Part shown: piece after piece, positions 29,975 through 39,062 of the stretch
How positions within the stretch are numbered: the stretch's first letter is position 1
Layout of the letters: the number at the start of each line of letters is the position of its first letter
Source of the DNA: Bacteroidetes bacterium CG18_big_fil_WC_8_21_14_2_50_41_14
GTDB taxonomy: Bacteria > Bacteroidota > Bacteroidia > Bacteroidales > F082
Assembly (NCBI GenBank): GCA_002771745.1
Contig: PCUL01000368.1
Location: 15,437-54,498, forward strand
Direction of reading: 5' to 3'
DNA length: 39,062 bases
Translations under genes and position numbers: made by a program
The notes under the pieces: generated by a model
Told to the model about the DNA's origin: nothing
Databases searched by the model: none
Seen by the model: the letters and a program-made list of their open reading frames with translations, nothing else

Positions 29975-31405
29975 ATGAAATTCTACCCCGAACACTATAA
30001 AATACCTGATGAGCGACAAAAGCCATTTATCGATGCCTTGGAAATTGAAACCTTTTTAAATGAGGCTGTTTCAACTAAAGAAGAAGTTTTGCGCATCATC
30101 GCTAAATCGCTTGATAAAAACCGGCTTTCGATGCCTGAGGTGGCTGTCCTACTCAATACAGAAGATCCTGAGTTGGTAGAACTAATTAAACAGGGCGCTA
30201 AAGAGCTTAAGAAAAAGGTGTATGGAAACAGGATTGTGTTGTTTGCCCCTCTTTATGTAGGGAATCTTTGCTCCAACAACTGCAAGTATTGCGGGTTCAA
30301 AAGCTCGAATGCAGCAGCCGTAAGGAAAACACTTTCTGATACAGAACTCGTAAACAATGTGAAGGCCCTTGAGCAAAACGGCCAAAAGCGTTTGATTTTG
30401 GTTTATGGTGAGCATAAAACCTATAGCCCTGAATTTATTGCCTCTAACGTAAAAACAGTATATGGGGTTAAAACCGGAAATGGTGAGATCAGAAGAGTCA
30501 ACATCAATGCTGCACCGCTTGAAGTGGAAGGCTTTAGAACAGTAAAAGAATCCGGAATTGGCACCTATCAGGTGTTTCAGGAGACATATCATCCTGAGGC
30601 ATATAAAGCGTACCATCCAAGCGGGAGAAAAGCGGATTATCACTATCGGTTAACTTCGCTCGACCGGGCTCAGGAAGCCGGTCTGGATGATGTGGGCATT
30701 GGCGTGCTCTTCGGTCTTTACGACTGGCGTTTTGAAGTCATGGGTTTGGTCCGGCATACCAACCACCTGGAAGCATGCTATAACGTTGGCCCTCATACCA
30801 TTTCCTTCCCCCGTTTAACGGATGCTGCTGATTTTAAAGTCGATCCGCAGTACCGTGTAAATGATAATGACTTTACAAAAATCATTGCCATCCTTCGTCT
30901 GGCGGTGCCTTACACGGGCATGATCCTGACGGCACGTGAACCCAAACACATCCGCACCGAGGTGCTTCAGTATGGTTGTTCGCAGATTGATGCAGGAACC
31001 AAACTTGAGATGGGAGCTTATTCTGATAAGAAGGAAAAAGTCACCCAGAATTTGAACAAGGAACAGTTTCTTATCAACGACGAACGCTCGCTGGCGGAAG
31101 TGATTGATGAGCTGCTGGATACTGATTTTCTTCCGTCATTTTGCACCGCGTGCTACCGCAAAGGCAGAACAGGCGAGCACTTTATGGAGTTTTCCGTACC
31201 CGGATTTATCAAGCGATTTTGCACTCCAAACGCCATCTTAACCTTGTCGGAATACATTATGGATTATGCCGGTATGGAAACTGCCTCAAAGGGCTGGAAA
31301 GTGATTGAAAAAAATATCGTTCAGCTCATCGATCCAACTTTGGAAGAGGAAGTGCGTCAGCGCATCGGGAAAATAAAAGCTGGCGAACGGGATTTGTATT
31401 TTTAA
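29975..31405 (+). CDS. hydG: [FeFe]-hydrogenase maturase HydG (tyrosine lyase, radical SAM)
   Basis: 476 residues. The radical-SAM motif CSNNCKYC (C99, C103, C106) binds the SAM cluster. The C-terminal extension has C390 and C393 (FCTACYRKG) and C416 (RFCTPN), the CX2CX22C motif specific to HydG that binds the auxiliary cluster. HydG cleaves tyrosine to supply the CO and CN ligands of the H-cluster as an Fe(CO)2(CN) synthon. A plain ThiH lacks this C-terminal site, so HydG is well supported. hydF begins 16 bp later. Confidence 0.96.
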   Translation: MKFYPEHYKIPDERQKPFIDALEIETFLNEAVSTKEEVLRIIAKSLDKNRLSMPEVAVLLNTEDPELVELIKQGAKELKKKVYGNRIVLFAPLYVGNLCSNNCKYCGFKSSNAAAVRKTLSDTELVNNVKALEQNGQKRLILVYGEHKTYSPEFIASNVKTVYGVKTGNGEIRRVNINAAPLEVEGFRTVKESGIGTYQVFQETYHPEAYKAYHPSGRKADYHYRLTSLDRAQEAGLDDVGIGVLFGLYDWRFEVMGLVRHTNHLEACYNVGPHTISFPRLTDAADFKVDPQYRVNDNDFTKIIAILRLAVPYTGMILTAREPKHIRTEVLQYGCSQIDAGTKLEMGAYSDKKEKVTQNLNKEQFLINDERSLAEVIDELLDTDFLPSFCTACYRKGRTGEHFMEFSVPGFIKRFCTPNAILTLSEYIMDYAGMETASKGWKVIEKNIVQLIDPTLEEEVRQRIGKIKAGERDLYF

Positions 31406-31421
31406 TTTAAGCTTAAAAGTC

Positions 31422-32636
31422 ATGTCCAAAGGAAAAGATCTAAAACCACATATCGGCATCTTCGGTAGAAGAAACAACGGCAAAAGTTCCATCATCAACA
31501 TGCTGGTCGGGCAGGATGTAGCCATTGTGTCTGGTGTTGCGGGTACCACCACCGATCCTGTGAAGAAATCGGTGGAAATTTTTGGCGTGGGATCGGCCAT
31601 CATCATCGATACGGCCGGCATTGACGACTCCGGGGATTTGGGTGAGAAACGCATCGAACGTACCTTAAAGGTAATCTCTACCATCGATCTGGCCATTCTG
31701 GTCATTGTTTCCGAACTGTTCGGAAGCTATGAGAAGGATCTGATCAAAGGCTTTCAGGAATACCATGTGCCGTTTGTGATTTTCCATAATAAGGCCGATC
31801 AGAAATCTCTGAGCGAGGAAGCCAGAATAAAAATAGGGCTATTAACAAATGCTGAAATACTGGACATCAGTACCTTGAATAACAACTCGTTGGTTCCTGC
31901 CACCGAGGTGATTAAAAAGGTGATCCCGCCATCGGCCTACCTTAAACCTTCGTTGTTTGAAGGCATGATCAGGCCAAAGGATTTGGTGTTGCTCGTAACC
32001 CCCATCGACTCAGAAGCCCCCGAGGGCCGCATGATCCTGCCACAGCAAATGGCCATCCGCGATGTGCTCGACCAGGATGCACTCTGCCTGGTGGTGAAAG
32101 AAACCGAGTTGCAGGATGTGTTTGACAGAGGTCTTAAGCCTGCATTGGTGGTAACCGATAGCCAGGCTTTTGGGATGGTGTCGAAGATTGTTCCAGAAGA
32201 CATTCCGCTTACAGGTTTTAGTGTCTTGTTTGCCCGCATCCGGGCCAACTTCGATCTTTATCTTAAAGGAACGCACAAACTTTCGGAACTAAAAACCGGT
32301 GACCGGGTGCTTATTCTTGAATCTTGCAGTCATCATGTGAGTTGCGATGATATTGGCCGGGTCAAACTTCCCAAATGGATCAGTGAGTTTTCGGGCAAAG
32401 GCATTCAGTTTGATGTAGTGGCCGGCCAGGATCCCATTCCTGGTAGTATGACCGATTATGCACTGGTTGTGCAGTGCGGTGGATGTGTGGTGACTCAAAA
32501 ACAATTGGCAGGCCGTTTGAAACCCGCTGTGGAGGCCGGAATTCCAGTCACCAACTACGGTCTTTCCATCGCTTATATGAATGGTGTTTTCGATCGTGCA
32601 GTTGCACCTTTGTCGTTGAAAACTACAGAACAATGA
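31422..32636 (+). CDS. hydF: [FeFe]-hydrogenase maturation GTPase HydF
   Basis: 404 residues. The N-terminal GTPase domain has P-loop GRRNNGKSS (15-23), G3 DTAGIDD and G4 NKAD. A central dimerisation domain and a C-terminal [4Fe-4S]-binding domain follow, with C302 and H304 (ESCSHH) and C352 and C355 (QCGGC), the CxH...CxxC pattern typical of HydF. It is the scaffold on which the diiron subcluster is assembled before transfer to HydA. The stop overlaps the hydE start (ATGA), so translation is coupled. Confidence 0.95.
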   Translation: MSKGKDLKPHIGIFGRRNNGKSSIINMLVGQDVAIVSGVAGTTTDPVKKSVEIFGVGSAIIIDTAGIDDSGDLGEKRIERTLKVISTIDLAILVIVSELFGSYEKDLIKGFQEYHVPFVIFHNKADQKSLSEEARIKIGLLTNAEILDISTLNNNSLVPATEVIKKVIPPSAYLKPSLFEGMIRPKDLVLLVTPIDSEAPEGRMILPQQMAIRDVLDQDALCLVVKETELQDVFDRGLKPALVVTDSQAFGMVSKIVPEDIPLTGFSVLFARIRANFDLYLKGTHKLSELKTGDRVLILESCSHHVSCDDIGRVKLPKWISEFSGKGIQFDVVAGQDPIPGSMTDYALVVQCGGCVVTQKQLAGRLKPAVEAGIPVTNYGLSIAYMNGVFDRAVAPLSLKTTEQ

Positions 32637-33718
32637 GTCGGGCAGTAGCTTCCATATTAAAACAGCGTGATTTTAACCGGGAAACCCTGGTACGACTGCT
32701 TGAAGCCAATGAGGAGGAAACCCGATTGATTTTTTCCGAAGCCGCCCGCATCAAACATCAGAAGGTGGGTAACCGGGTATATCTGCGCGGACTCATCGAA
32801 TTATCAAACATCTGTGCAAAAGACTGCCTGTATTGTGGTATCCGCAAGAGCAATGAAAATTGCCAGCGGTATGTGGTTTCAGATGCAGAGATTGACAAAG
32901 CCATCCAATATGCGGTTGATAGCCGAATGGGAAGTTTGGTGATCCAGTCGGGTGAGCTACAGACCGAAAATTTCATTGAAAGGGTAAATAATATACTGAT
33001 CCGTGCCCGTGAAATTGGAAAAGGGGAATTGGGCGTAACCCTTTCGTGCGGCGAACAAAGCCGTGAAACTTATGAGAAATGGCGTGAGCTGGGAGCATCC
33101 AGGTATTTGCTGCGCATCGAATCTTCCAATCAGGAACTCTACTATAAGATCCATCCACAGGATGAAACCCATCGGTATCAAGTCAGGCTGAATGCCTTGC
33201 GTTTACTCAAATCATGCGGATATCAGGTTGGTACCGGGGTGATGATTGGATTGCCCTTCCAAACCATGGACGATTTGGCAGCCGATCTGCTGTTTATGCG
33301 CGATCTCGACATCGATATGTGTGGCATGGGTCCGTACATCGAGCACCAGGATACGCCGCTTTATCAATATAAAAACCAGTTACATCCGGTTGCCGAACGC
33401 GTACAGCTTAGTCTTAAAATGATCGCCCTGCTCCGCATTTTGATGCAGGACATCAACATCGCATCTACCACGGCTTTGCAGGCCCTGGATAAACAAGGGC
33501 GGATTTATGCGTTGAAGGTGGGTGCCAATGTGATGATGCCCAACATCACACCCGGACTTTACCGCAACAATTACGCCCTCTACCTCAACAAACCCGGCAT
33601 GGACGAAGAAGCGGAAGACAGCCTGCGTAACCTGGAGAAACAGGTACATGATGCCGGTTGCGTGGTTGGATATGGTGTTAGAGGTGATTCGGTGCATTAT
33701 TCGGCAAGGAAAAGGTAG
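32633..33718 (+). CDS. hydE: [FeFe]-hydrogenase maturase HydE (radical SAM)
   Basis: 361 residues from ATG 32633, which overlaps the hydF stop; the 53-codon upstream extension lies inside hydF and is rejected. The SAM motif is CAKDCLYC (C61, C65, C68). The body contains GVTLSCGEQSRETYEKW, IESSNQELYYKIHP and VGTGVMIGLPFQTMDDL, typical of HydE in the BioB-like family. It acts on the HydG product to build the diiron azadithiolate precursor. All three maturases are adjacent, so the cluster is self-sufficient. It is the last gene before a repeat-bearing gap. Confidence 0.95.
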   Translation: MSRAVASILKQRDFNRETLVRLLEANEEETRLIFSEAARIKHQKVGNRVYLRGLIELSNICAKDCLYCGIRKSNENCQRYVVSDAEIDKAIQYAVDSRMGSLVIQSGELQTENFIERVNNILIRAREIGKGELGVTLSCGEQSRETYEKWRELGASRYLLRIESSNQELYYKIHPQDETHRYQVRLNALRLLKSCGYQVGTGVMIGLPFQTMDDLAADLLFMRDLDIDMCGMGPYIEHQDTPLYQYKNQLHPVAERVQLSLKMIALLRILMQDINIASTTALQALDKQGRIYALKVGANVMMPNITPGLYRNNYALYLNKPGMDEEAEDSLRNLEKQVHDAGCVVGYGVRGDSVHYSARKR

Positions 33719-34344
33719 GACACACCAGTCTGCCGATAGGTAGAGATTACACGGATCAAACGGATTAAAGGGATTAAAGGGATTCCCCTTTTAACCGTCA
33801 CTCGACCTTTCATGGTAAAGTGCATAACCCCCGGGATTTCATCTCCGGCGGTAGTATTAAAATAAATTCCTACCCTGTCTATTGATGTTGGATTTTTTTT
33901 TAAGTTTACCCCACCAAACACCTGATGATCCAATTACAATGAAGTAGAAAGAAACCGATTTAACTAATTATAAACGATTATAAATGGGTAGGTTATTATG
34001 CCTAAAGAGGTTAAATAAAAGGGGTATTAAACAGATAACTGCTAGAGTAGGTTTTAGACACTCGTTGTACGCAAGCCGAAAAAAGACACCGCAGTAATAT
34101 GATTGCAGATTTGAAAAAGAAAAAAAATGGAAAAAGCTAACCCACAAAAGCAAGAGTTTGGCAGCCCATCCCTGCAAACCGTCCCTGCCTGCGCCGAAGC
34201 TTCGGCAGGCAGGTCTTCGCTGCCAAATACATGCTTTTTTTGCCAACGCACACGGATTAGCATGACACTTTTGGATTGATAATGACGATAAAATTGTATT
34301 TTGTAGATTGATAACTGGATTAAAAATGAGATTAAAAGGATAAA
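33719..34344. other. Gene-free gap with repeat-like sequences
   Basis: 626 bp between hydE and the restriction-modification gene. After hydE there is a short tandem (GGATTAAAGGGATTAAAGGGATT, 33760-33782 region). From about 34040 to 34260 there is a palindrome-rich block described separately. The short open frames on the minus strand, with compositions such as IPLIPLIRLI, come from these repeats and are not believable genes. No complete TTTG/TAnnTTTG promoter is seen before the restriction gene. Confidence 0.55.
34157..34227. repeat. Nested inverted repeat, dispersed-repeat-like
   Basis: The outer arms TTTGGCAGC (34157-34165) and GCTGCCAAA (34219-34227) enclose an inner palindrome. There CCTGCCT, GC, GCCGAAG (34184-34199) is followed directly by CTTCGGC, AGGCAGG (34200-34213): 14 pairs with a 2-nt bulge and no loop. 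Sequences of the CTGCCGAAGCTTCGGCAG type are, from memory, common dispersed palindromes in Bacteroidota genomes. I see only this one copy in the window. Confidence 0.65.
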
Positions 34345-37300
34345 ATGAGTTTGTTTCAAAAATCGGTAGAGAAAAAATATTTAAACGAGTTAGATTCCGT
34401 TCTGATTGACAATAAATACAAGGAATTTCAAGATTACTTTGGAAATCCTTCGATTCAGGAAAATATCAGAAATTCTAAGGAGGAGCAATTTCAAGAGGGG
34501 TTTTTACGGGAACTTTTCGTTTCTATTTTTGGATATACACTCAATCCACAACCTAATTTTAACCTGACAACGGAATTAAAAAATATTGTAAATAGCAAGA
34601 AAGCTGACGGGGCGATTTTGAAAGGTGAAGGTGCTATTGCGGTTATTGAATTAAAAGGAACAGACACAACCGACTTAGACAAGATTGAAACACAAGCATT
34701 CGGATATAAAAACCATCATCCTAAATGCGTTTATGTGATAACTTCAAACTTTGAAAAACTCCGTTTTTACATTCAAAATGCGGTTGACCATATCGACTTT
34801 GATTTATTCAACCTGACACGGGAGCAGTTTTCGTTAATGTGGCTTTGTTTGGCAAAAGACAATTTGCTAAACGGATTACCTAAGATAATTAAGGAATCAT
34901 CGCTTTTACAGGAAGAAAACATTACCAAAAAACTGTATTTCGATTACTCAAAATTCCGAGAAGCGATATACAACAACCTCTTAAAGAACAATCCAGAAAC
35001 CGATAAACTTTTACTTTTCAAGAAAACCCAGAAATTACTTGACCGTTTTCTGTTTATCTTTTTTGCTGAAGACAGGTTGTTATTACCGCCAAATTCAATT
35101 AGCGAGATTGTAAAACAATGGACAACCTTAAAAGAGGAACTTGACGAATATGTTCCATTGTACGACCGATTTAAAAAGTATTTCGGTTACATGAACACAG
35201 GTTACAAAGGCAAGAAATACGACATTTACGCCTACAACGGTGGCCTATTTGCACCTGATGAAATTCTAGATAACATTTCTATTGACGATGAAATTCTTCA
35301 TAAACATACGTTAATATTAAGCCAGTACGATTTTGAAACCGATGTAGATGTAAATATTCTGGGACACATTTTCGAACATTCACTTGGTGATATTGAAAAC
35401 GTGCAAGCCGAAATTAAAGGCGAAAAAATAGACAGCCAAAAGACCAAACGCAAAAAGGACGGAATTTTTTACACACCCAAATACATTACAAAATACATTG
35501 TAGAAAACACCGTTGGCAAACTTTGCGAAGAAAAACGGAGAGAATTTGATATTGTTGACGAAGAGTATGCCAAAGATCGTAAAAACAGAAAAAAGGACAC
35601 CATTAAAGCCCTCGATGATAAATTAACTGATTACCGCAATTGGCTTTTAAGTTTAACCATTCTCGACCCGGCTTGTGGTTCGGGAGCATTTCTAAACCAA
35701 GCTTTAGACTTTTTAATAATCGAACACCGCAAAATTGACGATTTACGTGCACAGCTTTTTGGAAGTGGTTTGGTTTTCTCCGACATCACAACTGATATTC
35801 TCGAAAAAAACATTTATGGAGTTGACATAAACGAGGAGTCAGTTGAAATTGCGAAACTCTCACTTTGGTTAAGGACAGCACAAAAAGGCAGAAAACTTAA
35901 CAAACTTAACAACAATATAAAATGTGGAAATTCACTCATTGACGACCCCGAAGTTGCAGGAGAGAAAGCATTTAACTGGCAAAACGAGTTTCCGAATATT
36001 TTTCAGGCAAAAGAGAAAAAAGCATGGCATGTTACCTGGGTTACGCATGATACAAGAACATCGGAACGTATGATAAAATACAAAGTTCGTGAACGCAGAG
36101 CAACAGGAGAAATGCATATTGACCGAAGTGTGTATTTAGAAAACGAAGATGCAATAAAAGTAACTGAAATTATTTCGGATATTGTTGTTGAAGAAAAGTA
36201 CAATTGTATAGCATACAATATCTGTAATGACCATATTCATGCATTATTGGTATGTGAAGAAGTAGAACTACCTAATGTAGTCCGAAAACTAAAAGGTAAA
36301 TCAGCACAGAAGTTCAAAGAATATCTAGGTATAGCTAAAGATGAAACGTTCAATTTATGGGCACAAAAGTTTGATAGGAAGCTCATAGAAACAGAAACAC
36401 AGCTAACAAATGTTATAGAATACATCAAAACCAATCGGGGAAAGCATGGACTACCTGATATCAACAAGGGGTTGCAACCCCTTGTTCAGAGAATGACCTG
36501 CACATACGACCACGCTTTCCGAACCGAATACAAAGGCGGTTTTGATGTTGTAATTGGGAATCCGCCTTATGTACAATCTCATTCAATATCTGAATCAGAA
36601 AAAGAATTTATTTACAAAAATTATAAAACAGCGGAATATCAGATTAATACCTATGGTGTTTTTGTTGAACAATTTATAAAACTATTAAAATTCAGTTCGT
36701 ACTACAGCCTAATTATTCCAAATTACTGGCTTTCAACGAAATTTGACAAGCGTTTGCGAAAAGAAATTTTTATTGATAACCATGCTCTCGAAGTAATTAA
36801 CACCTATGAAGTTTTTGAAAGTGCGACAGTTGACACATTAATTTTAACAGGACAAAAAGTAAAATTTTCGAATCCAAAAACATTATTTTATTCAATTTCA
36901 AAAGAATACAAAACAATTGAAGAAAGATTGACTGCAATTAACCTCAGAATATGGGAATACTCAGAACAAAAGCAATTTGTGCAAGGTGATGAAGATAATA
37001 TAATAAGTTTTAATATAGAATTTAATTTAAAAGGAGAACATTTGTTAGAGGATTTTCTAATATTTAAAAAGGGAATGCAACCATATGAAGAAGGGAAAGG
37101 AAATCCGCCACAAACAAGAGAAATGATGAATGAAAAAGTGTATCATTCAGCCATTAAAATTGATGAATCCTATTTTCCACTATTGGGGGCAAGACATATT
37201 CAACGTCATTATTTGGTGCCATTTACTGAATATATAAAATATGGTAAAAATCTTGCAGCCCCCCGTAATCCAGATATTTTTAAAGGCGAAAGGATTTTAA

Positions 37301-37917
37301 TTAATCGCATTTTATCAAAGAATAAAATTGATGGTGTACTTCTTTCTGAAGCGTACATCAATAATACCGATGTCTTTAATCTTGTTCCGATTATTAGCAA
37401 TTCAATCTCAATTAAAGTATTATACGCTTTGATAGTGTCAAAACTTTGTGCCACCTATTTTAAAAAAGCCAATGTAAATTTGAATCGTAATGCTTTTCCA
37501 AAGATTAATGTAAATACATTGGAAGCTTTTCCTGTACCAGATATATCGCTTGAAATTCAAAGGCAAATTGAATTACTAATTGATAGAATTTTAACAAAAA
37601 CAAATGAATTTCAAGCAATCAAAGTAAAGTTTATCGCACTGGTTCAAGATAATTTAGCAATAACTTCAATTTCAAAAATTTTAGAAACCTTTTATGAATC
37701 TGATTTCAAAAGTTTTCTTTCAGAATTGAAAAAACAAAAAGTTATTCTTTCACTGGCAGACCAGTCAGAATGGAAAGATTACTTTGAAAAAACAAAATCA
37801 AAAATAAACCTACTCCAATCTGAAATAGAAAAAGTTGACAGAGAAATTGACCAAATGGTTTATGAATTATACGGTTTAACAGAGGAGGAAATTAAAATTG
37901 TGGAGGAGGCTATTTAA
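34345..37917 (+). CDS. Type IIG (Eco57I-like) restriction-modification enzyme with inserted HUH/Y1 domain
   Basis: 1190 residues, read without interruption. The N-terminal nuclease has D88 and E102-L-K104 (IAVIELKG), a PD-(D/E)xK site, with Q117 after it. A helical linker leads to the methyltransferase: motif X region DGIFYTPKYI, motif I DPACGSG (441-447), motif IV NPPY (739-742), which marks N6-adenine methylation. The C-terminal ~350 residues look like a target-recognition domain (LEDFLIFKKGMQPYEEGKG, LLGARHIQRHYLVPF) followed by coiled helices. Unusually, residues ~556-730 between motifs I and IV are a Y1-transposase-like domain, described separately. Start ATG 34345 with AGGA 4 nt upstream. 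The sequence is clearly more AT-rich than the core genes, suggesting transfer. Confidence 0.9.
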   Translation: MSLFQKSVEKKYLNELDSVLIDNKYKEFQDYFGNPSIQENIRNSKEEQFQEGFLRELFVSIFGYTLNPQPNFNLTTELKNIVNSKKADGAILKGEGAIAVIELKGTDTTDLDKIETQAFGYKNHHPKCVYVITSNFEKLRFYIQNAVDHIDFDLFNLTREQFSLMWLCLAKDNLLNGLPKIIKESSLLQEENITKKLYFDYSKFREAIYNNLLKNNPETDKLLLFKKTQKLLDRFLFIFFAEDRLLLPPNSISEIVKQWTTLKEELDEYVPLYDRFKKYFGYMNTGYKGKKYDIYAYNGGLFAPDEILDNISIDDEILHKHTLILSQYDFETDVDVNILGHIFEHSLGDIENVQAEIKGEKIDSQKTKRKKDGIFYTPKYITKYIVENTVGKLCEEKRREFDIVDEEYAKDRKNRKKDTIKALDDKLTDYRNWLLSLTILDPACGSGAFLNQALDFLIIEHRKIDDLRAQLFGSGLVFSDITTDILEKNIYGVDINEESVEIAKLSLWLRTAQKGRKLNKLNNNIKCGNSLIDDPEVAGEKAFNWQNEFPNIFQAKEKKAWHVTWVTHDTRTSERMIKYKVRERRATGEMHIDRSVYLENEDAIKVTEIISDIVVEEKYNCIAYNICNDHIHALLVCEEVELPNVVRKLKGKSAQKFKEYLGIAKDETFNLWAQKFDRKLIETETQLTNVIEYIKTNRGKHGLPDINKGLQPLVQRMTCTYDHAFRTEYKGGFDVVIGNPPYVQSHSISESEKEFIYKNYKTAEYQINTYGVFVEQFIKLLKFSSYYSLIIPNYWLSTKFDKRLRKEIFIDNHALEVINTYEVFESATVDTLILTGQKVKFSNPKTLFYSISKEYKTIEERLTAINLRIWEYSEQKQFVQGDEDNIISFNIEFNLKGEHLLEDFLIFKKGMQPYEEGKGNPPQTREMMNEKVYHSAIKIDESYFPLLGARHIQRHYLVPFTEYIKYGKNLAAPRNPDIFKGERILINRILSKNKIDGVLLSEAYINNTDVFNLVPIISNSISIKVLYALIVSKLCATYFKKANVNLNRNAFPKINVNTLEAFPVPDISLEIQRQIELLIDRILTKTNEFQAIKVKFIALVQDNLAITSISKILETFYESDFKSFLSELKKQKVILSLADQSEWKDYFEKTKSKINLLQSEIEKVDREIDQMVYELYGLTEEEIKIVEEAI
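36009..36530 (+). mobile_element. In-frame REP-associated (Y1/HUH) transposase-like insertion within the restriction gene
   Basis: This part of the restriction gene encodes residues ~556-729. It starts after NEFPNIFQ and ends before GGFDVVIGNPPY, which are usually close together in Eco57I-type enzymes. The start (WHVTWVTHDTRTSER), the HUH motif H630-I-H632 in NDHIHALLV, the helix VVRKLKGKSAQKFKEYLG, and Y693 in NVIEYIKTNRGKHGL match the order in IS200-like/RAYT proteins, whose Tyr attacks DNA. A perfect palindrome lies at its 3' end. There is no stop codon or frameshift. Boundaries are approximate. Either a mobile element inserted in frame or a domesticated domain would explain it. Confidence 0.65.
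36463..36486. repeat. Perfect 24-bp palindrome (REP-like) inside the restriction gene
   Basis: The half-site AACAAGGGGTTG (36463-36474) is followed immediately by its exact reverse complement CAACCCCTTGTT (36475-36486). It is translated in frame as N-K-G-L-Q-P-L-V. It lies 42 bp after the presumed catalytic Tyr codon of the HUH domain, where a REP hairpin recognised by a RAYT enzyme would be expected. Confidence 0.9.
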
Positions 37918-38951
37918 TGGGTAAAGTTGATTTTTCACAAGTTGAAAAAAGTAATGCAATTCAACAAGAAGTTGAAGCCTCTTTCAAATTTATTATTGAG
38001 GGAATAAGAATATTAAAAACTAAGAAATCAGCAATTCTAAATAATCACGTTGAATTACAATTATTTGCGGGTGGATTTGAACGATTAGCAAAAATACTTT
38101 TGTTTCTAAAATATAAGCAGATTAATAGTAAATATCCGGAACTTAGGGACAATAAGAATTTTTTTAGTAATTACGACAATGGTCACGGTATTAAAAAAAT
38201 GATTGATGAACTTGTTTTGTATTCTAAAACCATTGAATTTATGAACTCAATTCCAATGGTTGCAGAAGATATTAACTTTTTAGAAAATGACCATAGTTTC
38301 AATAAGTTTATGGAGATATTATCTGATTTTTCTAGGTGTCAACGTTATTATTATGTCGATGTAATTGCAAAAAAAGAAAATAAAGGAACAAATGCTTTTG
38401 AAGAATTTTCAAAGTTAATCTATTCTTATTCTGATAATATTGATGTTTCTAAAATGTCATACGAAGAGGAAGATAAACACCAAATAGACTCATTTATCAA
38501 AACAATTGAAAAGGGTGTAAGAGCCATATCACGATTTTTCACACATGGTTTTGGGAATGAAGGGCAACGATATTATGGTGATTTTGTAGAATTTATTTTT
38601 ATGAAAGATGAAGATTTAGGCGATAATAAATACCTCAAACCAAAACTTGACCCTCAGCATGATTACAAACCTTGGAGAACTAATAAGTTGCATTTTCTAA
38701 AAATCAAAGCATTTGCCAAAACGAAAATTGTAAAGTCTGATGAATTTGAAGATTGGGCTTTTACAGTTGATAAGGTTAAAGTTTATAATTATAAAAATGG
38801 GGTTTATTGCTTTGTGAAAATTGGTAAAAGCATTTTTGCTTTAAATGGAAGTGCAGGAATTGTATTTAAAATACCAACTTACTATGCTTCAGAAAATTTA
38901 ATGCCAAGAAAATACCAAACGGAACTATTAGGTATTGCTCAAAAATTATAA
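37917..38951 (+). CDS. Hypothetical protein coupled to the restriction enzyme
   Basis: 344 residues. I do not recognise it. It is soluble, rich in Lys, Glu, Phe and Tyr, with no signal peptide or membrane span. It is mostly helical in the first ~200 residues (QQEVEASFKFIIEGIRILK, ELQLFAGGFERLAKILLFL). The C-terminal part looks mixed alpha/beta, ending FVKIGKSIFALNGSAGIVFK. No nuclease, ATPase or helicase motif is visible. The ATG shares one base with the stop of the restriction gene (TAATG), so the two are translationally coupled. That implies a shared job, for example an accessory or control factor; this is inference. Base composition is as AT-rich as that of the preceding gene. Confidence 0.8.
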   Translation: MGKVDFSQVEKSNAIQQEVEASFKFIIEGIRILKTKKSAILNNHVELQLFAGGFERLAKILLFLKYKQINSKYPELRDNKNFFSNYDNGHGIKKMIDELVLYSKTIEFMNSIPMVAEDINFLENDHSFNKFMEILSDFSRCQRYYYVDVIAKKENKGTNAFEEFSKLIYSYSDNIDVSKMSYEEEDKHQIDSFIKTIEKGVRAISRFFTHGFGNEGQRYYGDFVEFIFMKDEDLGDNKYLKPKLDPQHDYKPWRTNKLHFLKIKAFAKTKIVKSDEFEDWAFTVDKVKVYNYKNGVYCFVKIGKSIFALNGSAGIVFKIPTYYASENLMPRKYQTELLGIAQKL

Positions 38952-38954
38952 CTT

Positions 38955-39062
38955 ATGAAAGGAAACAGTTCGGAAATAATACTCTACCAAACCGAAGACG
39001 GGCAAACCAAAATTGATGTCCGCTTGGAAGAAGAAACTGTTTGGCTTTCGCAGGCACAAATG
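38955..39062 (+). CDS. RhuM-family protein, 5' end only
   Basis: The first 36 codons are visible, then the window ends. The start (MKGNSSEIILYQTEDGQTK, then IDVRLEEETVWLSQAQM) is the typical opening of the virulence RhuM/DinD-like family, an N-terminal DNA-binding-like domain common in Bacteroidota genomic islands and next to restriction systems. The biochemical role of the family is not settled. It begins 3 bp after the preceding stop, so it is likely the third gene of the same operon. Confidence 0.75.
   Translation, partial: MKGNSSEIILYQTEDGQTKIDVRLEEETVWLSQAQM

Follow-up and report, generated by a model that had tools for sequence, protein, structure and literature searches.

Inteins with homing endonucleases lie in frame at one conserved site of a conserved host enzyme, are patchily distributed, and are exchanged between alleles. 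The TnpA transposases of the IS200/IS605 group (ISDra2, IS608) are encoded by stand-alone tnpA genes between subterminal hairpins, and the TnpA-REP proteins, or RAYTs, go with multi-copy extragenic REPs that have a GT[AG]G foot. In the part of Quentin et al. 2018 (PMC6006769) drawn on here, in-frame REP insertion within tnpA-REP genes is unique to subclass 2.4, which is abundant in Bacteroidetes and Cyanobacteria, and unexpectedly long proteins were discarded as fusions or annotation errors, which may be why fusions of the kind reported below are not treated in that part.

The locus analyzed here joins two systems that are usually studied apart, the RAYT/REP elements, with a function still under debate, and restriction-modification (RM) enzymes. 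It lies in the window, a stretch of 39,062 nucleotides of a Bacteroidetes genome, where a type IIG RM gene contains a Y1 (HUH) nuclease domain within its reading frame; no paper in the literature that we searched was recognised as describing a Y1 domain fused into a type IIG enzyme. Recurrence, exchange of the domain as a cassette, and palindromes of its own suggest that a mobile element can inhabit a defence gene in a manner that is new. Because the Y1 domain has target-like palindromes within the ORF that encodes it, a single gene suffices for testing cleavage, the choice of target, and mobility.

A Y1 domain within a type IIG restriction-modification gene

The gene occupies positions 34345-37917 of the window (+ strand) and is an uninterrupted ORF, translated without a break through 1190 codons. 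Pfam matches its product to Eco57I (E 9.2e-37) and TaqI_C (E 1.1e-9), with N6_Mtase and MmeI_Mtase also placed, and the PADLOC type IIG model PDLC03609 matches at E 2.7e-299, its best stretch being residues 1-554. Pfam, PADLOC, and alignment put a PD-ExK nuclease, a gamma N6-methyltransferase (MTase), and a specificity region in one chain, which makes the protein a type IIG enzyme by architecture, with predicted restriction and methylation activities. The PD-ExK-type nuclease residues run from D88 to K104 (34606-34656, +), MTase motif I (DPACGSG) spans residues 441-447 (35665-35685, +), and motif IV is contained in GGFDVVIGNPP (36535-36567, +), directly after the insert; the protein is otherwise the same as the MmeI/Eco57I-like type IIG enzymes, but has one more domain, placed between motifs III and IV of the MTase. 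In 43 aligned full-length Y1-bearing proteins (from 49 candidates, with L091, L107, L110, L111, L123, L131, and L142 left out), D88, E102, K104, DPACGSG, NPP, H630, H632, and Y693 are all invariant, which bears out the claim of an earlier note on this DNA that the frame is intact through nuclease, motif I, insert, and motif IV.

The borders of the insert are given by homologues that lack it. Within the same order, 22 Y1-free homologues have exactly 31 aa from CGNSLI (or a variant) to NPPY, with a spacer that typically reads EFPxIFxKGGFDVVIGNPPY, and six Y1-bearing homologues have 215-392 aa there. This constant spacing places the cassette at residues Q554 to K730 (36004-36534, +), where it replaces two residues (e.g. 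AK); the earlier note had picked out the right segment, at 36009-36530, and the edges prove to be a few bases wider. It also leads us to reject the idea that the Y1 segment is an ordinary part of the methylase, and since 27 of the 38 homologous gene copies examined in relatives are without it, the concern that most homologues might carry the segment falls away.

Pfam places Y1_Tnp on residues 594-696 (E 5.1e-11; 43.2 bits against a cut-off of 23). An AlphaFold model of the insert made with 66 aligned domains, a prediction and not a solved structure, has a mean pLDDT of 88.5 and a pTM of 0.82, and a Foldseek comparison of this model with the PDB finds ISDra2 TnpA and 4er8, a RAYT bound to a REP hairpin, both at E 6e-6; a profile search of PDB sequences with the domain gives eight matches, every one named a transposase. 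The 66 domains comprise 65 RM-embedded ones (window included) and one stand-alone, with L084, L108, L152, and L157 left out, as were inserts shorter than 150 aa or containing N. The HUH motif HIH lies at residues 630-632 (CAT ATT CAT, 36232-36240, +) and the candidate catalytic tyrosine, Y693 in YIKTNR, has the codon TAC at 36421-36423 (+); both histidines and the tyrosine are invariant in the domain and full-length alignments alike, as are W672, N697, and R698 across the 66 domains. The tyrosine of the insert model sits in helix 132-148, such that the domain has the HxH metal site and the single Tyr on a later helix (H630, H632, Y693) that define a Y1 member of the HUH nucleases. All 76 RM inserts of at least 140 aa, the divergent L216 included, have the motifs DH/NH-x-H and Y-x-x-x-N-x-x-x-H, and dN/dS of 0.076-0.235 in eight of eight pairs indicates that the insert is under purifying selection. 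Residues 554-730 are thus predicted to be a Y1 HUH nuclease domain akin to REP-associated transposases, and the residues of its active site are conserved. Pfam, AlphaFold, and Foldseek agree with the earlier reading, in which an HUH/Y1 domain separates motifs I and IV of the MTase without breaking the frame, a reading that hinged on a Y1 fold in residues 556-730, and such a fold is predicted. Because the catalytic residues of both are conserved, both the RM and the Y1 enzyme look competent, and an inactive relic is unlikely in view of the catalytic motifs in all 76 inserts and the low dN/dS. The AlphaFold model of the full-length 1190-aa protein is weak (pLDDT 78.2, pTM 0.40), so the Y1 domain is not placeable relative to DNA.

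With the TnpA-REP/RAYT proteins (class 2, subclass 2.4, as far as they are covered in the part of PMC6006769 used here) the domain shares the HUH/Tyr fold (the 4er8 match), an Asn four residues past the Tyr, in-frame REP-like palindromes in the gene, occurrence in Bacteroidota, and a patchy distribution. It differs from them in being embedded in a type IIG enzyme, in having YxxxNR (Y693 then IKTNR, N and R being invariant in the 66 domains) where the same part of PMC6006769 gives YxxxNP, and in that its own genome has few palindrome copies, all in Y1 genes, as against multi-copy extragenic REPs. The NCBIfam model NF047646 (REP_Tyr_transposase) matches 66 of the 66 aligned domains at E<=0.001 and gives the window insert 48.8 bits, below its curated cut-off of 80; it is nearer than the IS200 profile, which gives 31.8 bits, below a cut-off of 55. 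Three marks of a RAYT are absent, namely the NP after the tyrosine, extragenic REPs with a GTAG foot in the genome that carries the domain, and a score above the NCBIfam cut-off, and the domain is therefore not filed as one. It likewise resembles the IS200/IS605 TnpA proteins in fold and active site, but is internal to a 1190-aa ORF.

We note that three RM genes without Y1 (L047, L050, and L051) have another insert at the same motif III-IV site, 70-75 aa of helical-looking sequence, and the loop between MTase motifs III and IV is therefore permissive. Behind the RM gene is a 344-aa ORF with no function assigned (37917-38951, +), which overlaps the RM stop codon by that codon's final base. It has no match in Pfam, NCBIfam, or PADLOC and one weak PHROG match (E 0.0009), and a single homologue, 57% identical, is at the same position behind the Y1-bearing RM gene of L086; it is a possible partner of the RM gene.

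Recurrence in Bacteroidota and other phyla

When GTDB genomes were scanned with the alignment of inserts, 110 relatives of the domain were recovered, of which the best 80 were kept. Among these best 80 the same insertion site is found in 78, a share of RM-embedded copies that is biased upwards because seven of the eight rows of the query alignment were RM inserts. In 67 of the best 80 (66, and L095 under code 25) a single ORF holds the domain with a methylase motif on either side, 11 have one flank only (contig end, stop, N run, or altered motif), and two, L101 and L150, are stand-alone domains. Some copies may be broken, as closed ORFs of only 607-1008 aa are seen in seven of the best 80 (L137 contains an N run); the Jejuia ORF stops early. 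L095 (951-4583, code 25, TGA=Gly), from a MAG with the label Gracilibacteria, has an RM-embedded Y1 and contains 37 TGA codons in frame; it is a recoded copy of a Y1-RM gene otherwise seen mainly in Bacteroidota.

By label the carriers are foremost Bacteroidota, then Chlorobiota, Ignavibacteria, Balneolia, Neomarinimicrobiota, Cloacimonadota, Gracilibacteria, and one gammaproteobacterial MAG, a taxonomy in which some bins are possibly contaminated, though named isolates are included. A one-off or an assembly artefact is rejected, since the gene recurs in the isolates Algibacter, Chlorobaculum, Tangfeifania, Psychroflexus, Jejuia, and Gelidibacter. The architecture is, judged from these genome sequences, recurrent across several phyla, and the recurrence in Bacteroidota that the earlier note had tentatively suggested is both confirmed and extended.

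In a phylum-wide sample such a domain is present in an ORF of at least 767 aa in six of 395 genomes, own genome included. In one of the six, G295, the domain and its host are both divergent; the insertion site is unchanged and the palindrome is another one. At E<=1e-50 the RM protein has a homologue in 27 of 100 relatives (own genome counted), and ten of these 27 have Y1, own genome not counted. The own genome has a second Y1-RM copy (G000:C272, L052), with N runs, frame breaks, and its own palindrome. No copy of the Y1 insert was found in viral, phage, and plasmid collections, and carriage on known phages or plasmids is rejected for want of a match there.

Exchange of the domain between alleles

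For a modular analysis, complete proteins (51 Y1-bearing and 22 Y1-free) were cut into N-half, Y1, and C-half; L056 and L070 were left out, and L142, which was split wrongly, was removed by length filters. Pairwise identities among 50 Y1-bearing proteins (995 usable of 1225 pairs) give Spearman coefficients of 0.16 between N-half and Y1 and 0.10 between Y1 and C-half, against 0.31 between the two halves. Individual pairs illustrate this in both directions: L093 and L148 are 61, 88, and 34% identical in N-half, Y1, and C-half, and L128 and L146 61, 81, and 32%, while the figures for L082 and L102 are 85, 44, and 72%, the Y1 identity being low across most of the insert. In codon alignments, identity shifts within about one 75-base bin of the insert borders, and the Y1 dS is 0.44 in L093/L148, where the N-half is saturated, and 0.66 in L128/L146, against 3.2 for the N-half. 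In L093/L110 (94, 62, and 94%) the strong difference is confined to mid-domain and the ends are 76-91% alike, so this is an internal change and not a swap of the whole cassette.

Y1-bearing and Y1-free proteins can be similar in both halves (L112/L063, 74 and 68%; L149/L069, 75 and 66%), and the N-half nearest to that of the window, 95% identical, is without Y1. On an N-half tree of 72 rows (50 with Y1 and 22 without), presence or absence of Y1 changes at least 13 times, gain and loss being indistinguishable on this quick tree, for which the Y1-free genes were from the window's own order and the Y1-bearing ones mostly from all genomes. The earlier note had asked whether the insertion is vertically inherited or patchy, and it is patchy. 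With its presence patchy and its divergence nearly uncorrelated with that of either flank, the Y1 domain behaves as a cassette. The Y1-free RM genes are also mosaic (N/C Spearman 0.43; 117 pairs, 19 genes), and specificity parts are sharply different between alleles with near-identical N-halves. On a Y1 tree, the stand-alone L005 (own genome) and L181 (same genus), which are nearly identical, are nested among RM-embedded copies, as if the domain had left an RM gene; ordinary RAYTs are on a single long branch (length 3.2), with placement and root uncertain.

Presence in frame at a single conserved site, patchiness, and allelic exchange are likenesses to inteins, and the safe insertion site proposed in the earlier note fits the cassette behaviour. 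Its comparison with inteins does not extend to the insert itself, which is rejected as an intein because it runs from Q554 to a YK before GG without splice-junction residues and no intein family was found in Pfam or NCBIfam scans; it is retained in the protein, and its nuclease is of the HUH type.

Palindromes within the insert and elsewhere in the gene

A perfect 24-bp palindrome, AACAAGGGGTTGCAACCCCTTGTT (36463-36486), lies in the coding sequence of the insert and is read as an NKGLQPLV loop. Pattern search and hairpin folding identify it as a hairpin of -10.4 kcal/mol (z -4.2); it has no GTAG foot beside it, and a search of 31345-39062 for perfect palindromes found no second one. Alone it is weak evidence, because a match with two mismatches or fewer turns up in nine of 100 shuffled versions of the window, the real one having none. 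Across the collection, perfect palindromes (arms of at least 9) are found in 70 of 77 inserts, with 93 in 45,981 bp (2.02/kb) against six in 919,620 bp of codon-shuffled inserts (0.0065/kb), an enrichment of about 300-fold, and densities are 0.22/kb in the rest of the gene and 0.10/kb in the flanks. Seven of the 77 inserts have no perfect palindrome; L156, L158, and L161 end at contig ends. An in-frame REP within the tnpA gene, the mark of RAYT subclass 2.4, thus has its counterpart in the 70 inserts. These palindromes, which the earlier note did not mention, point to a RAYT/REP-like activity on the gene itself. Like intragenic REPs and the Rickettsia palindromic elements, as described in the part of PMC3733652 used here, they are translated in frame within proteins, and they differ in being linked to a Y1 domain of the same gene.

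Outside the insert, palindromes are present in 21 of 50 complete Y1-bearing genes and in one of 25 Y1-free genes (p 0.0004). They lie preferentially in a few loops: between the D and ExK of the nuclease (DGAIL/AVIELKG), before SKRKKDG, and before C-terminal helices. The 16-bp centre is identical to that in the insert of the same gene for 15 of 47 outside copies, where permutation gives a mean of 1.9 and a maximum of 8 (2000 trials). Comparison of related genes (L107/L111 and L098/L104) shows half-sites also multiplying as tandem repeats that keep the frame, and in L111, L104, and L042 such repeats, with units of 12, 30, and 27 bp and palindrome half-sites, are located in variable loops of the Y1 domain. 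Palindromes are also present in a further Y1-free gene, L183, and in L182 (G075:C222), whose type IIG family (DUF7149/DUF7814/Eco57I) is a different one; the two genes are from a genome in which a Y1-bearing allele is present.

Possible mechanism and alternatives

We hold with middling confidence that a RAYT-like element, probably active, has become a non-splicing in-frame cassette of RM genes and acts mainly on its own locus. The computed part of this explanation consists of the predicted fold, the conservation of the active site, purifying selection, the fixed site, patchiness, exchange, and the palindromes. The cassette would occupy one permissive loop in the methyltransferase half of a type IIG enzyme, in frame and unspliced, and the host enzyme would stay functional because the insert folds independently. 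The Y1 domain would bind the palindromes as single-stranded hairpins, either on the lagging strand or in incoming single strands, and would cut beside them via Tyr693. Such cutting might seed new in-frame palindrome copies near its own gene, and the breaks might let the cassette copy into cassette-free RM alleles by recombination via the conserved flanks, as homing elements do; a cassette placed in a loop that is essential, within an RM gene that is addictive, would be guarded from loss. If homing is true, this is an intein-like parasite with no need for splicing. We go no further than middling confidence because ordinary recombination could exchange cassettes and Y1-free alleles shuffle their halves too; homologous recombination via the conserved flanks can account for the exchanges without nuclease activity. 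Also counting against this explanation are the palindromes outside the RM gene in many Y1-bearing genomes and in G085, the seven inserts without a perfect palindrome, the closed ORFs that stop early, the internal change in L093/L110, and the lack of a match in the viral, phage, and plasmid collections. A bolder form, which we advance tentatively and rather doubt, is a new class of mobile element: a non-splicing homing HUH element that lives permanently as a domain in the frame of RM enzymes. It would recognise the palindromes of its coding sequence and place further copies, in frame, in loops between the domains of the host gene. Cuts at these sites would then serve its own spread and also the exchange of specificity modules in a defence enzyme.

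The domain could instead be a passive passenger, a single ancient fusion for which ordinary homologous recombination between RM alleles has been the sole means of movement, with palindromes that are REP-like repeats tolerated in loops. The conserved flanks on both sides, the mosaicism of Y1-free genes, and the dispersal of palindromes in some genomes would all fit, and REPs inside tnpA-REP genes are known from subclass 2.4 (PMC6006769, in the part used here), but we judge this unlikely: the catalytic motifs in all 76 inserts and the low dN/dS speak against inert cargo, and the roughly 300-fold enrichment of palindromes over codon-shuffled inserts and the above-chance match between outside copies and the local insert also count against it.

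It is also improbable that, in line with the recruited nicking activity put forward in the earlier note, the Y1 domain is a domesticated effector, part of a defence enzyme that nicks invading single-stranded or hairpin DNA or helps to engage replicating phage DNA. Such a role would suit the PD-ExK and HUH/Tyr sites being kept together in the 43 aligned full-length proteins and the purifying selection on the insert. It sits poorly with patchiness among close enzymes (the 95% identical N-half without Y1) and a Y1 divergence that is nearly independent of both halves, and palindromes in the host's own gene fit a phage-directed nuclease poorly. Least probable, indeed very doubtful, is a diversification device in which cuts at interdomain palindromes promote swapping of nuclease, methylase, and specificity modules and so alter the target, which if true would give RM enzymes a quick route to new restriction specificities and would agree with the recurrence of palindromes at DGAIL/AVIELKG, before SKRKKDG, and before C-terminal helices and with the sharply different specificity parts behind near-identical N-halves, but Y1-free genes shuffle too and no breakpoint is shown at a palindrome.

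Genome-wide distribution of the palindromes

The palindromes are not always near the cassette, which speaks against the proposal of one acting mainly on its own locus. In the own genome (4.49 Mb) a strict pattern has two copies, both within Y1-RM genes, and a relaxed pattern has three, all in Y1 genes, the third being the stand-alone Y1 gene; with only these three, a genome-wide high-copy REP is rejected there. The relaxed pattern gives 42 matches in 100 relatives against 12 for a reversed control. Half of these (21, in nine genomes) are in RM or Y1 genes and 11 are in G085; the other ten are single matches with poorly self-complementary centres, consistent with the control rate. G085 has its 11 copies yet no match to the RM protein at E<=1e-50. 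Ten of the 11 were examined (L184-L189); the palindrome there is CAAGGGGGCWWGCCCCCTTG, some copies are 42 bp apart, and nine of the ten are outside ORFs of at least 110 aa.

In 36 other Y1-bearing genomes, hand-chosen from the 78 RM loci, there are 204 pattern copies against six for the reversed-pattern control, with 62 in the RM gene, where 0.2 are expected by length, and 142 outside it. All copies are within the RM gene in 19 of the 36 genomes, and two genomes hold 47 and 52. Since 17 of the 36 have copies elsewhere, a strictly gene-private palindrome is rejected in general. Two sites in G495 and a single site in each of G500 and G529 are outside open frames of at least 150 aa, and all six sites examined in G498 are inside such frames. 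Four loci of G498 (L253-L256) have the palindrome in open frames that resemble sensor or repeat proteins, on contigs other than that of the RM gene.
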